A stretch of 50,749 bases of DNA from Microcella sp. (lineage in GTDB: Bacteria; Actinomycetota; Actinomycetes; Actinomycetales; Microbacteriaceae), in contig NZ_JAUSMI010000051.1 in assembly GCF_030645145.1 (NCBI RefSeq), forward strand, positions 1 through 50,749. The letters run 5' to 3'. Of this stretch, positions 45,540 through 50,620 are shown in pieces. The position numbers and the translations under genes are program-made. The first letter of the stretch is position 1. Each line of letters begins with the position of its first letter. Under the pieces are notes generated by a model. It worked only from the letters and a program-made list of their open reading frames with translations, searched no databases and was not told the origin of the DNA.

Positions 45540-46403
45540 GTGACCCCGGCCCCGCCGCACGACCCCGACGCTCTGACCGCCGCCCTCGAGATCCTCGAGT
45601 GCCCGCTCTGCCGCGAGGCACTCGAGCGCGTCGACGGCGGAGTCGGCTGCGAGGCGGGCCACCATTTCGATGTCGCGCGGCAGGGCTACGCGAGCATGCG
45701 CGGCGGCGCCTCGACCGCGACGGGCGACACGGTCGCGATGGTCGAGGCGCGCGAGCGGGTGCAGGCCTCGGGCGCGCACGACGGCATCGTCGCGGCGATC
45801 GTCGACGCCGTGCCGGAGGGCGCCCGCTGGATCGTGGATCTCGGCGGCGGCACCGGCTGGCACGCCGCCCGGGTCCTCGACGCGCGACCCGGCCTGCGCG
45901 GTGTCGTCCTCGACGCCTCGGTGCCCGCCCTGCGACGCGCGGCCCGCGCCCACGAGCGCCTCGCCGCCGTCGCGAGCGACGTGTGGCGGGGCATCCCGGT
46001 GCAGGACGCGAGCGTCGACGTCGCGCTCCGGGTCTTCGCGCCGGGCGGCGGCGAGCGCGGTGCGGCGGAGCTCGAGCGGATCCTCGCCCCGGGCGCGCGC
46101 GTCGTGATCGTCGTGCCCGAGGCCGACCATCACCGCGAGCTCGTCGACACCCTCGGGCTCCTGCGCGTGCCGGCCGGCAAGGCGGAGGAGGCCGCGGCGA
46201 GCATCCCGGGCGCCCGCGTGCTCTCGACGACGCGGGTGAGCGCCGTGCACGAGCTCGGCCGCGACGAGGTGCTCGACCTCGTGATGATGGGGCCGAACGC
46301 GTTCCACCACGAGCGCGCGGCGCTCGCCGACCGCCTCGCCGAGCGGCCCGCGCCCGTCGCCGTGACGATCGCCGTGAGCGTCGTCGTGCTCGAGGTCGAC
46401 TGA
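45540..46403 (+). CDS. rlmA: 23S rRNA (guanine-N1)-methyltransferase RlmA-like
   Basis: 287 residues. An N-terminal zinc finger is formed by Cys21, Cys24, Cys37 and His41 (CPLC...CEAGHHFD), followed by VARQGYASMRGG, the RlmA hallmark. The SAM domain starts with WIVDLGGGTGWHAARVL. RlmA-I methylates G745 and RlmA-II (TlrB) G748 of 23S rRNA; which applies cannot be told. GTG at 45540 has a TACAGT motif (45528-45533) six bases before it, suggesting a leaderless transcript. Confidence 0.87.
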   Translation: MTPAPPHDPDALTAALEILECPLCREALERVDGGVGCEAGHHFDVARQGYASMRGGASTATGDTVAMVEARERVQASGAHDGIVAAIVDAVPEGARWIVDLGGGTGWHAARVLDARPGLRGVVLDASVPALRRAARAHERLAAVASDVWRGIPVQDASVDVALRVFAPGGGERGAAELERILAPGARVVIVVPEADHHRELVDTLGLLRVPAGKAEEAAASIPGARVLSTTRVSAVHELGRDEVLDLVMMGPNAFHHERAALADRLAERPAPVAVTIAVSVVVLEVD

Positions 46404-46507
46404 GGCCCGAGCCGACCCCGCTGGGCCCGCTCCGCCGCCGCGCCTGATTTGCCGCCGAACGGTGCGCAATCCCGGGAGACTGCCCGCACCGCGCGTAGGG
46501 TGTCCGC

Positions 46508-49500
46508 GTGTGGCGTGCCGACCGATACGACGATCCCGATGTCGCTGACGACGACGCTCCCGCGACCGCCGCAGCCGGCGGGACGAGCGCGAGCGCGCTC
46601 ACGATCGGGGATCCGACGGTGAGCGTCGGGAACATCGCGACCCCCGTCTGGGAGCGCTGGCGCGACGAGCTCGCGGGCCTCGGAGGCCGTTCGCCGCTGC
46701 TGCACTTCGACGACTCCGACCGCACGCGGATCGAGCTCGGCACGAGCCACCCCGGCGGGCTGGCCCGCTTCATCGCCGGCAGCCCGACCCTCCTGAGCAA
46801 CCTCGTGCGCGACGACATCGCGCTGCGCCGGGCGCGGTTCGCCGCCGAGCGCATCGCCGACAAGGGCCTCGAGCTCGCGAGCGTGCGCGGCATCGACGCC
46901 GTCGCCCTCGGCATCGGCATGGTCGCGTGGCACCACGACGGCACCGATTACCGCGCGCCGCTCCTGCTGCGCCCGCTGCGGCTGCGCCGTCGGGGCAGGG
47001 ATGTCGAGCTCACCCTCCGCGGCGACGTCGCCGTGAACCCCGCCCTGGTCCGCGCCCTCTCGCAGCAGTTCTCGCTGCACCTCGACACGCACGCCTTCGT
47101 CGCGCTGACCGACGACGAGGGCACGTTCAAGCCGAACCCGCCCCTCGACCGGCTCCGCGGGCTGACCGCGCACCTCGACGGGTTCACGATCGCCCCGCGT
47201 CTGGTCGTGAGCACGTTCGCGGAGATCGGCGCCCCGATGGCGGCCGACGCGCACGACCTCGCGCATCCCGTGCTCGACGCCCTCGCGGGCAACCAGAGCG
47301 CCCGCTGGGCCGTGCGCGAGAGCACGACGCCCGTCGAGCTCGTCCACGCCGACAAGCGGCCGCCCGAGACCGACCTCCTGCTGCTCGACGCCGACGCCGA
47401 GCAGGAGCAGGTGATCGCGAGCATCGCGGCCGGCAACTCGCTCGTCGTGAAGACCCTGCCGGGCACGGGCGGCACGCAGACGGTCGTCAACGCCGTCGGC
47501 GCCCTCGTCGCGCAGAACAAGCGCGTGCTCGTCGTGAGCCCGCGCCGCGCGAGCGTGCGATCGGTCGCGAGCCGCTTCGCCGAGATCGGGCTGCCCGGCC
47601 TCGCCGTCACGGCGCGGTCGCTGCGGCGCGACGTCATCCGCGCGATCTCGCGCAACGAGAAGGCCTCGCGCCCCCAGGTCGCCGACGTCAATGAGGCGCT
47701 CGCCCGCCTGCGCGGCGTGCTCGTCGACTACCGCGAGGCGCTCGCGCGGCCCGACGCCGCCCTCGGCATCAGCGTCTACGACTGCGTGACCGAGCTCAGC
47801 CGGCTCGCCCTCCTGCCGACGCCGCCGACCACGCGCGCGCGCCTCAGCCGTCAGGCCGTCGAGCTCCTCGCGCGGGATCGCGCCCACGCGAGCTCGGTCA
47901 TGGTCCAGGCCGCGGAGCTCGGGCAGTTCAAGTACGGCCCCGACGACTCGCCCTGGTACGGCGCCCGCTTCGCGACGGGCGAGGAGGCCGAGCGCGCCCA
48001 CGAGCGCGCGAAGCGCCTCCACCACGAGCTGCTGCCGCGCCTGCTCGAGCGCGCCAACGCGCTCGTCGGCTCGACCCACATGCGCCCGTTCGAGTCGGTC
48101 GCCGAGCTCGGCATCTACCTGCGCCTGCTCATCGACATCCGCGACACGCTCGACAAGTTCCAACCGTCCGTGTTCGACCGGTCGCTCAGCGAGCTCATCG
48201 CCGCGACGGCGCCGCGCCGCGAGGGCTCGTCGATGCCGGCCGCGACGCGTCGCCGCCTCAAGTCGCTCGCGAAGGAGTACCTGCGCCCCGGCGTCCACGT
48301 GAGCGACCTGCACGAGGCGCTCACGCGCATCCAGCAGCAGCGCGTGCTGTGGCAGCGCTTCGTGCCCGTCGGCATCACGCCGCAGGTGCCGGTCGGCATC
48401 GCGGACGTCCATCACGCCTTCCAGCAGGTCGAGCAGGATCTCGATGCGCTGGATGCCCCGCTCGGCCACGAGTCGAAGCCCCAGCTGCTCCGCCAGCGCC
48501 GCGTCGCCGACCTCGTCGAGCTCGTGGCCTCGCTCGCCGCCGAGAGCGACGTGCTCAACAACCTGCAGGAGCGCACCGAGCTGCTGCGCGAGATGGAGCG
48601 CTGGGAGGTCGGTCCGCTGCTGAGCGACCTGTCGGCGCGCCACGTGCCGCACGACCAGGTCGCCGCCGAGCTCGAGCTCGCGTGGTGGCGTTCGGCGCTC
48701 GACGCCCTGCTGCAGAGCGACCGCGCGCTCCTCGGCGCCGACACCGCCGTGCTCGACCGGCTCGAGGCCGACTTCCGCCTCGTCGACGAGGCGCACGCCG
48801 CGGGAACCGCCTCCCTCCTGGGGTGGCAGCTCGCCGAGAACTGGTCGATCGGCATCACCGACTGGCCCGACGAGGCGGCCGCGCTCAAGGCGCTGCTCAA
48901 GGCGGGCATGCTCACCTCCGGCGACCTGCAGAAGTGCGCGCCGCACCTCAGTCGGCCGATCGCCCCTGTGTGGCTCGCCTCCCCGTACGACGTGCACCGC
49001 ATCAGCGACGACATCCCCTTCGACGCGGTGTTCCTGCTCGACGCGGGCGCCGTGACGATCCCCGAGGTCGCGGGGGCCATCCGCCGCGCCCGCCAGGTCG
49101 TCGCCGTCGGCGACCCGGTGACGCAGAGCCCCTCGCCGTTCACCGTCGCGCTCGACGCCGACGAGCCCCAGGTCGAATCCGACGTGGATGCCCGGCACGC
49201 CGCCTCGGCCCTCTTCCAGCTCGCCGAGCTCCTGCCGTCGATGTCGCTCACGCGCTCGTACCGCGCGGGCGGCGAGGATCTCGCCGAGCTCGTCAACCGC
49301 CGCTTCTACGCCGGCCGCATCGACTCGCTGCCGTGGGCGGGGTCCTTCCTCGGCCACCCCTCGATCGCGGTCGACCACCTCGCCGACGGCGTCGGGATGC
49401 CCGACGACGAGTCGGGCGCGGTCGAGAGCGTCGACGTCGAGGTCGAGCGCGTCGTCGACCTCGTGCTCGAGCACGCGACCGCTCGGCCGCACGAGTCGCT

Positions 49501-50311
49501 CATGGTCATCACCGCGAGCGCGAAGCATGCGTCGCGCGTCCACGCCGCCGTGCTCGAGGCGATCGGCACGCGCCCCGACCTCCACGACTTCGTGCTCGGC
49601 GATCGCCCCGAGCCCTTCGCCGTCCTCACGATCGAGCAGGCGGTGGCGCAGAGCCGCGACCGCGTCATCTTCTCGATCGGCTTCGGCCGCACGCCGCACG
49701 GCCGCGTGCTGAGCGAGTTCGGCGCGCTCGGCCGCCCGGGCGGCGACCGCCTGCTCGCGGTCGCGATGACGCGCGCCCGCCGGTTCGTGCGCATCGTGAG
49801 CTGCGTCCGCGCGGAGGACCTCGACGACGACCGCATGTCGCACGGCGCCCGCGCCCTCGCCGACCTGCTCGCCGACATCGAGGCCCGCCGGTCGCGCATC
49901 GAGTTGCCCGACGACAGCGACCCGATGCTCATCGACCTCGCCCGTCGGCTCGAGGCGCGCGGCCTGCGCGTGTCGCTCGGGCACCGGGGCAAGTTCCGTC
50001 TCGTGGCGAGCCGCGGCGGCTACTGCATCGCGGTCGACACCGACGCCTCGCTCATGGACATGAGCCTGCGCGAATCGCTGCGCCTGCGCCCCGACCTGCT
50101 GCGGCGACTCGGCTGGCACTACGCGCGCGTGCACGTCTTCGAGCTCTTCAGCCAGCCCGACGCGGTCGCCGACCGCATCGCGGCGATGGCCGGAGCCAGT
50201 GCAGGCTCCACGGGCCGCCCGTCGGCGGCGACCGAAGCCGCCGCGGCCCGGCACCGGGCCGCGCTCACCGAGACGCAGCCGATCGACGCGCTGCCGCCGA
50301 TGCCGCAGTAG
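46508..50311 (+). CDS. Large SF1-helicase-like protein with degenerate ATPase motifs and a nuclease-like C-terminus
   Basis: 1267 residues. Residues 1-310 are an N-terminal domain with GLELASVRGIDAVALGIGMV and LLLRPLRLRRRG, as in DUF4011-type helicases. The first RecA-like domain has LPGTGGTQTVVNA (317-329): the Walker A Lys is Gly322. A helical insertion (about 390-780) follows. Walker B is FLLDAGAV, Asp845 with the catalytic Glu replaced by Ala846. Later motifs keep AVGDPVTQSPSPF, LTIEQAVAQSRDRVIFS and AVAMTRARRF. The end (about 1160-1240) resembles the Vsr/MTES_1575-type endonuclease fold without a clear catalytic set. ATP hydrolysis is unlikely; nucleic-acid binding is plausible. TAGGGT (46496-46501) ends six bases before the GTG. 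Confidence 0.82.
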   Translation: MWRADRYDDPDVADDDAPATAAAGGTSASALTIGDPTVSVGNIATPVWERWRDELAGLGGRSPLLHFDDSDRTRIELGTSHPGGLARFIAGSPTLLSNLVRDDIALRRARFAAERIADKGLELASVRGIDAVALGIGMVAWHHDGTDYRAPLLLRPLRLRRRGRDVELTLRGDVAVNPALVRALSQQFSLHLDTHAFVALTDDEGTFKPNPPLDRLRGLTAHLDGFTIAPRLVVSTFAEIGAPMAADAHDLAHPVLDALAGNQSARWAVRESTTPVELVHADKRPPETDLLLLDADAEQEQVIASIAAGNSLVVKTLPGTGGTQTVVNAVGALVAQNKRVLVVSPRRASVRSVASRFAEIGLPGLAVTARSLRRDVIRAISRNEKASRPQVADVNEALARLRGVLVDYREALARPDAALGISVYDCVTELSRLALLPTPPTTRARLSRQAVELLARDRAHASSVMVQAAELGQFKYGPDDSPWYGARFATGEEAERAHERAKRLHHELLPRLLERANALVGSTHMRPFESVAELGIYLRLLIDIRDTLDKFQPSVFDRSLSELIAATAPRREGSSMPAATRRRLKSLAKEYLRPGVHVSDLHEALTRIQQQRVLWQRFVPVGITPQVPVGIADVHHAFQQVEQDLDALDAPLGHESKPQLLRQRRVADLVELVASLAAESDVLNNLQERTELLREMERWEVGPLLSDLSARHVPHDQVAAELELAWWRSALDALLQSDRALLGADTAVLDRLEADFRLVDEAHAAGTASLLGWQLAENWSIGITDWPDEAAALKALLKAGMLTSGDLQKCAPHLSRPIAPVWLASPYDVHRISDDIPFDAVFLLDAGAVTIPEVAGAIRRARQVVAVGDPVTQSPSPFTVALDADEPQVESDVDARHAASALFQLAELLPSMSLTRSYRAGGEDLAELVNRRFYAGRIDSLPWAGSFLGHPSIAVDHLADGVGMPDDESGAVESVDVEVERVVDLVLEHATARPHESLMVITASAKHASRVHAAVLEAIGTRPDLHDFVLGDRPEPFAVLTIEQAVAQSRDRVIFSIGFGRTPHGRVLSEFGALGRPGGDRLLAVAMTRARRFVRIVSCVRAEDLDDDRMSHGARALADLLADIEARRSRIELPDDSDPMLIDLARRLEARGLRVSLGHRGKFRLVASRGGYCIAVDTDASLMDMSLRESLRLRPDLLRRLGWHYARVHVFELFSQPDAVADRIAAMAGASAGSTGRPSAATEAAAARHRAALTETQPIDALPPMPQ

Positions 50312-50329: not shown

Positions 50330-50620
50330 ATGGACGATCACCGCAGCGCCGACGCGCCCGACGGAATCCCTGCCGACGACTCGCTCCCCGAGGACCGGTC
50401 AGCGACGGGAGCGCGAGCGCGCGATTCGGAGCAGGCGGCTGACGAGAGCTCGCGCGACGCCGAGCCGACGCGCACTCCGATGCGCCGCCCGCGGCAGCGC
50501 AGGCGTGCGACGACCCCGCCCCCGCCCGGCTCCGACCCGAGCCCGATCGCCGAACCCGAGCGCCACCGGGTCGACGAGAACGACGCGCGGCTGACGGCCG
50601 AGAAGCCGCCGCACTACTGA
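50330..50620 (+). CDS. Small disordered protein
   Basis: 96 residues, highly charged and Pro-rich, with no fold visible. An Arg cluster (MRRPRQRRR) is followed by a more conserved-looking tail, IAEPERHRVDENDARLTAEKPPHY. The tail is the part I would expect to be kept between relatives. Starts 18 bases after the helicase-like gene; function unknown. Confidence 0.6.
   Translation: MDDHRSADAPDGIPADDSLPEDRSATGARARDSEQAADESSRDAEPTRTPMRRPRQRRRATTPPPPGSDPSPIAEPERHRVDENDARLTAEKPPHY

Follow-up and report, generated by a model that had tools for sequence, protein, structure and literature searches.

A pseudo-helicase gene of Microcella, retained throughout its order: a probable non-catalytic protein with a tailed partner

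Introduction

Why would a very large helicase-like protein be kept when the residues that should drive its motor are gone? The question is raised by contig NZ_JAUSMI010000051.1 of Microcella sp. (assembly GCF_030645145.1), whose 50,749 nucleotides are called the window here. Near its end lies a gene that an earlier note, made from the letters of the DNA, had described as a probable superfamily 1 (SF1)-like pseudo-helicase with both Walker motifs disabled, under selection for a non-catalytic role. Our analysis agrees with the core of that description, since motif losses, a low ratio of nonsynonymous to synonymous substitution rates (dN/dS) and wide retention together indicate a pseudo-helicase under selection, which is therefore probably non-catalytic. 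The order-wide distribution of the gene, its in-place orthology with intact copies, a small tailed open reading frame (ORF) beside it and a leaderless arrangement in front of it go beyond that note.

Across whole families of the order, the catalytic residues have been lost; gene, locus, predicted fold and partner have been retained. The reading that we favour, with moderate confidence, is that a DUF4011-type SF1B helicase carrying a Vsr-like nuclease gave rise to a core protein of the order that now serves as a non-catalytic nucleic-acid scaffold or sensor together with its tail partner. As part of this reading, and with the same moderate confidence, the protein would in most families be unable to couple ATP hydrolysis to movement, the nuclease residues also being lost in many.

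An intact gene without the catalytic residues

The features on which this section depends are as follows.

46508 to 50311, + strand: pseudo-helicase gene, 1267 amino acids, GTG start, stop codon included
47459 to 47482, + strand: degenerate Walker A, PGTGGTQT, residues 318-325 (Gly322 codon at 47471-47473)
49037 to 49042, + strand: degenerate motif II, Leu844-Asp845 in place of DE, placed by alignment
49109 to 49135, + strand: motif III-like GDPVTQSPS, residues 868-876
49655 to 49693, + strand: motif V-like RDRVIFSIGFGRT, residues 1050-1062, including Gly1058
49763 to 49783, + strand: motif VI-like AMTRARR, residues 1086-1092

An active SF1 helicase carries a Walker A lysine and the Asp-Glu pair of motif II, and the Microcella protein has neither. 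The letters PGTGGT (residues 318-323) and LLDAGA (residues 843-848) were found in the translated frame as described, and Gly322 indeed occupies the lysine column. The substitution of glutamate by Ala846 that the earlier note had proposed is off by one residue: when FDxxxxDEASQ is aligned without gaps to FDAVFLLDAGA, Leu844 falls on the Walker B aspartate column and Asp845 on the glutamate column, so that DE has become Leu844-Asp845 and Ala846 is the ancestral alanine of DEAS. Both Walker motifs are thus altered, motif II through its two acidic residues. Similarly, the glutamine said to be retained after motif II is present in GDPVTQ, one column away from the motif III glutamine, and the motif V-like segment RDRVIFSIGFGRT and the motif VI-like AMTRARR are retained as had been stated.

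The predicted frame of 1267 codons was borne out as one uninterrupted ORF with no internal stop, and eight full-length Microcella pairs gave full-length dN/dS values of 0.015-0.172, indicating that purifying selection persisted after catalysis was lost. The large protein is a real, intact gene and no freak copy. Decay into a pseudogene would account for the missing catalytic residues and for faster change around motifs II and III, but it conflicts with the intact frame, the low full-length dN/dS and the order-wide retention described below; we reject it and regard it as almost certainly wrong.

Loss of the catalytic residues across families

Relatives were aligned with one protein per locus, giving 179 different rows, of which 9 were paralogues and 170 were not; individual inspection extended to the order's 159 rows, which represent 19 families given as codes. 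From named loci with identical proteins, we take family f1 to be Microbacteriaceae and genus g1 to be Microcella. The Walker A lysine was found in none of 68 Microbacteriaceae rows (G 40, A 17, L 7, S 2, Y 1, R 1). The arginine comes from L059, a copy split in frame and misaligned at this column, the other piece of which carries PGTGGTQT. The acidic pair of motif II was altered in all 67 Microbacteriaceae rows covering it. The lysine is absent from every one of these rows, and Gly322 itself, whose fixation had been put up for checking, is not (40/68). That this copy might be a recent mutant is rejected, because lysine is absent throughout the 68 rows, intact orthologues are confined to other families and the gene is retained order-wide. 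The two Microbacteriaceae copies split in frame into two ORFs each (L059 and L067) could reflect assembly errors.

Might the protein still hydrolyse ATP by means of unusual residues, such as Asp845 acting as the base? The PGTGxTQT loop is otherwise near-invariant in Microbacteriaceae (in 63 rows, entropy was 0.25 for motif I, 1.56 for the lysine column and 0.27 for motif V, with a mean of 1.15), the glutamate column holds Asp in 67/68 rows, and the motif VI arginines are kept in 66 and 67 of 68. However, the lysine has given way to G, A, L, S or Y, the Walker B aspartate column is Leu or Val in 65/68, and the P-loop is largely gone in f3, f4, f9, f14 and f20, which makes residual ATPase activity improbable in our view.

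The intact combination of lysine, [ST] and DE was observed in 13 of the 170 non-paralogue rows, each from a family other than Microbacteriaceae (f18 9, f5 2, f33 1, f39 1), corresponding to 11 of the 159 rows of the order, where three rows (L061, L082 and L168) each lack one motif stretch. Motif V is better kept among the 159, with the Gly1058 column retained in 155 and the Asp in 148. Residues T567, H602, R711, H1007 and A1008 distinguish orthologues, intact or dead, from the nine paralogue rows, as does A566 with one exception.

Large paralogues (L095-L103, about 1670-2300 amino acids) with intact helicase motifs occur in some relatives only. The suggestion that the pseudo-helicase inhibits, or acts as a decoy for, such an active paralogue gains something from their existence, but the own genome yielded no second copy or paralogue at E<=1 (assembly 98.99% complete, 176 contigs), and 40 of 59 relatives have a single match, while extra matches elsewhere may be pieces of one gene. 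This part of the earlier note was not supported, and we consider inhibition of a paralogue very improbable.

Domains and predicted fold

Three further regions of the protein are relevant to its origin.

46874 to 47056, + strand: DUF4011-like region, residues 123-183, PF13195
47708 to 48667, + strand: long insert, helical for the most part, separating motif Ia from motif II, residues ~401-720, with residues conserved order-wide
49991 to 50182, + strand: Vsr/MTES_1575-like nuclease remnant, residues 1162-1225

The DUF4011 match (Pfam PF13195) scored 25.4 bits against a gathering threshold of 22.2 and covered part of the model (91-157 of 158). The MTES_1575 restriction endonuclease (REase) model (PF18741) gave 20.9 bits against a threshold of 38.2; three orthologues exceed this threshold (L078 75.8, L086 48.9 and L090 44.8 bits) and L073 stays under it (32.1). 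We presume the assignment of PD-(D/E)xK columns in the Vsr-like region. On that assignment, the set needs the iDxAV aspartate and the glutamate that follows; the Microcella protein lacks the first and has Asp in the glutamate column, with Asp1179 and Gly-Trp retained, so that the Vsr/MTES_1575-like C-terminus without a clear catalytic set is as had been described. The iDxAV is absent in 68/68 Microbacteriaceae rows, and the glutamate column reads E in 46, D in 21 (including the window) and a gap in 1. Among the other families, f5, most of f18 and many rows of f6, f7 and f16 retain the Asp and Glu of the nuclease, whereas f3, f4, f9, f14 and f20 do not. As families exist that combine a dead helicase with retained nuclease residues, the helicase can go before the nuclease.

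An AlphaFold2 model of residues 38-1237, built on 28 Microbacteriaceae sequences, had a mean predicted local distance difference test score (pLDDT) of 79.0 and a predicted template modelling score (pTM) of 0.59. Its best solved Foldseek matches were Senataxin (SETX, 2.3e-12), Aquarius, Sen1, Upf1, Dna2 and IGHMBP2. The predicted fold is a Upf1/Senataxin-like SF1B core, and the match is limited to that core because template modelling (TM) scores were low, none of the matches listed exceeding 0.47.

Probable vertical inheritance and loss in place

Matches to the large protein were found in 247/248 genomes of the order and in 84/84 genera, in 59/60 genomes of a nearer set (50/50 good ones), and in 66/295 genomes of a class-level sample at E<=1e-20; these counts include the own genome, and a genome match alone does not separate orthologue from paralogue. 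Even one genome as small as 0.8 Mb contains a match.

A quick LG+G4 tree was built from 112 of the 179 rows with the motif columns removed and f1 thinned to 10; it omits five paralogue rows as well as seven that were short, truncated or split, and f13 and f15 are absent. The 22 groups need 21 changes on it, the minimum possible, which points to vertical inheritance. Its weak points are long-branch warnings, f3 not falling on one side of a branch, a support of 36 for f14 and some weak family branches. Counting losses of the intact state and assuming no regain, this quick tree with its long-branch warnings requires four: one shared by f25 and f35, two inside f18, and a last one preceding the remaining 81 rows.

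Gene neighbourhoods were compared at 30 loci including the window, which ends too soon to show the downstream groups. An FmdB-like zinc ribbon group lies downstream in 21 of these and an mscL group in 16. Representatives of both groups were named with Pfam, and further downstream Pfam also identified a 5-formyltetrahydrofolate cyclo-ligase, a nucleotidyl transferase, presumably GalU-like, and a GNAT gene. Intact copies of f5 (L128) and f18 (L138 and L139) share their neighbours with dead copies and are therefore positional orthologues. Because these intact copies adjoin the same mscL and FmdB-like genes, catalysis appears to have been lost in place, on a quick tree at least four times. At the f39 locus (L143), neither group lies alongside.

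A tailed ORF as candidate partner

Directly downstream of the pseudo-helicase, the window contains a small ORF.

50330 to 50620, + strand: small ORF of 96 amino acids, candidate operon partner, ending ENDARLTAEKPPHY*
50606 to 50620, + strand: PPHY-stop tail at the end of the small ORF

This 96-amino-acid ORF has no Pfam or NCBIfam match, and an exact pattern scan of the own genome returned a single in-frame PPHY-stop, namely this ORF. Accepting an aromatic residue after PPH (and one Leu), 136 loci could be scored for the tail, 33 more having too little sequence. The tail was present in 125 of the 136, downstream in 107 and fused to the C-terminus of the large protein in 18, compared with 0/113 on the opposite strand and 4/1014 random windows, and in 111 of the 125 at most one residue separates the motif from the stop. 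It is linked or fused in 16 families, among them f20 probably by chance, its match being RPPHL at L141. When two proteins are fused repeatedly, this is a classic sign that they are physically linked. In f5 (2/2) and f18 (14/15, the remaining one without room), the tail accompanies intact copies as well. No tail was found at the four paralogue loci that offered room for one or at the single scorable loci of each of f25, f35 and f39. Four loci of f3 (L093, L195, L196 and L197) and one of f9 (L174) have PPHFGKI* or PPHFGKL* rather than PPHW.

Relation to anti-phage systems

Another reading is that the gene is an anti-phage system of the ProA/Hhe/PDC-S37 kind, which would sense phage nucleic acid and act through a partner. 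The best library matches are of this kind: NCBIfam NF058533 antiphage_ProA (305.8 bits, E 5.8e-91), PADLOC PDC-S37 (309.8 bits, E 1.1e-92, in a table without cut-offs) and NCBIfam NF042953/PADLOC Hhe (115.3 bits), the first two matching best in the C-terminal half of the protein, and the intact orthologue L078 scores higher, with 801 bits for ProA and 820 for PDC-S37. However, the scores of the Microcella protein lie far under the curated NCBIfam cut-offs of 1500 (ProA) and 2000 (Hhe), on which membership in either equivalog is rejected. Defence genes are typically sporadic, whereas this gene is near-universal, vertical and placed at one locus among housekeeping genes. In addition, four neighbouring window genes were scanned and none gave a convincing defence match, an RlmA-like methyltransferase having a weak match to mad2 (21.1 bits). 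We therefore consider a present anti-phage role unlikely, although less so than the other alternatives.

ProA and PDC-S37 remain the best-matching described families, from which the Microcella protein differs in score, in its lost catalytic residues and in being core and not sporadic. Hhe has the architecture DUF4011-helicase-Vsr, and DUF4011, a helicase-like core and a Vsr-like C-terminus are also found here; its model has 1797 positions compared with 1267 amino acids, and catalysis is not expected in the Microcella protein. The REase model matching the C-terminus comes from MTES_1575 of Microbacterium testaceum, which combines HEPN, transglutaminase, SF1 helicase, Vsr-type REase and winged helix-turn-helix domains (PMC3710099). 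With more than 2100 amino acids and its extra domains, MTES_1575 resembles in size the paralogue class L095-L103 and not the Microcella gene. DUF4011 is also mentioned for a core gene of Pseudomonas that lies at the edge of a defence hotspot (PMC10250203). Among titles and the beginnings of abstracts, no description of this gene pair was found, and the main text of a Bifidobacterium transposon-directed insertion site sequencing (TraDIS) paper (PMC5514069) mentions neither a helicase nor mscL or galU.

A proposed role and its precedents

We propose that the ancestor was an SF1B helicase of the DUF4011 type that also carried a Vsr-like nuclease domain, inherited vertically as a chromosomal core gene. 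The present protein would hold nucleic acid through motifs V and VI and the helical insert without burning ATP, and would serve as a scaffold or sensor subunit, following RecC and AddB in their complexes. The tail protein, acidic and probably disordered, would dock on the large protein, in cis where fused and in trans where it is a separate ORF, and docking would recruit or regulate a partner.

RecC and AddB retain dead helicase and nuclease folds as scaffold or sensor. They are reported to be pseudo-helicase and pseudo-nuclease subunits (PMC1185551, PMC4824097). AddAB (4cej_A) is a Foldseek match to the Microcella model (E 4.2e-7). The likeness would nevertheless be one of logic, not of homology: the best fold matches of the Microcella protein are Upf1/SETX-like, and no motor subunit is known for it, a RecB- or AddA-like partner not having been specifically searched for. 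PriA and Utp25 belong to other helicase families. Deinococcus PriA and Utp25 are reported to be conserved pseudohelicases without motor activity (PMC4504706, PMC9539457), and the present case differs in that catalytic status varies among families of one order at one locus.

Several observations weigh against the proposed scaffold or sensor. First, in most pairs no other segment had a dN/dS as high as that of 836-900 (motifs II-III; 0.18-0.45 in 7/8), so this stretch may be drifting. Second, because f3, f4, f9, f14 and f20 are without most of the P-loop and without the first motif VI arginine, nucleotide binding and the full set of nucleic-acid motifs do not appear common to all dead copies. 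Third, many rows of f6, f7 and f16 retain the nuclease Asp and Glu despite dead helicase motifs, and there the nuclease may still work without a motor. Finally, the tail was not found in 11 of the 136 scorable loci: L069 (f1, only 450 nt searchable), two each in f4, f7 and f20, and one each in f12, f25, f35 and f39. At the f12 locus, a PPHW tail lies further down.

The broader scenario, in which a defence-type helicase-nuclease became a core protein of a whole order, repeatedly lost its motor in place, kept a near-constant tail partner and so forms a new non-catalytic nucleic-acid machine, seems to us evenly balanced. If true, intact and dead versions living at one locus would display an enzyme-to-scaffold transition as it happens. 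Near-universal proteins without assigned function are good targets, and a very large protein kept while catalysis goes would separate the catalytic from the retained role. A locus that holds intact (f5 and f18) as well as dead orthologues lends itself to direct swaps, and the PPH[W/Y/F] tail, whether it is fused or encoded separately, offers a simple pull-down handle.

Upstream flank and start codon

Directly upstream of the pseudo-helicase lies the RlmA-like methyltransferase gene (45540-46403 of the window), and no gene group on the upstream side was common to many families in the neighbourhood comparison. Between the two genes stands a promoter-like element.

46496 to 46501, + strand: TAGGGT, -10-like element of a putative leaderless promoter, 6 nt before the GTG at 46508

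TANNNT followed after 6 or 7 nt by an in-frame [AG]TG was found in 122/164 loci, whereas the two remaining frames gave 2 and 3; the arrangement is absent in f4 (0/4) and rare in f12 (1/6). It suggests leaderless transcription of the pseudo-helicase, and the in-frame spacing across loci supports the GTG start at 46508.

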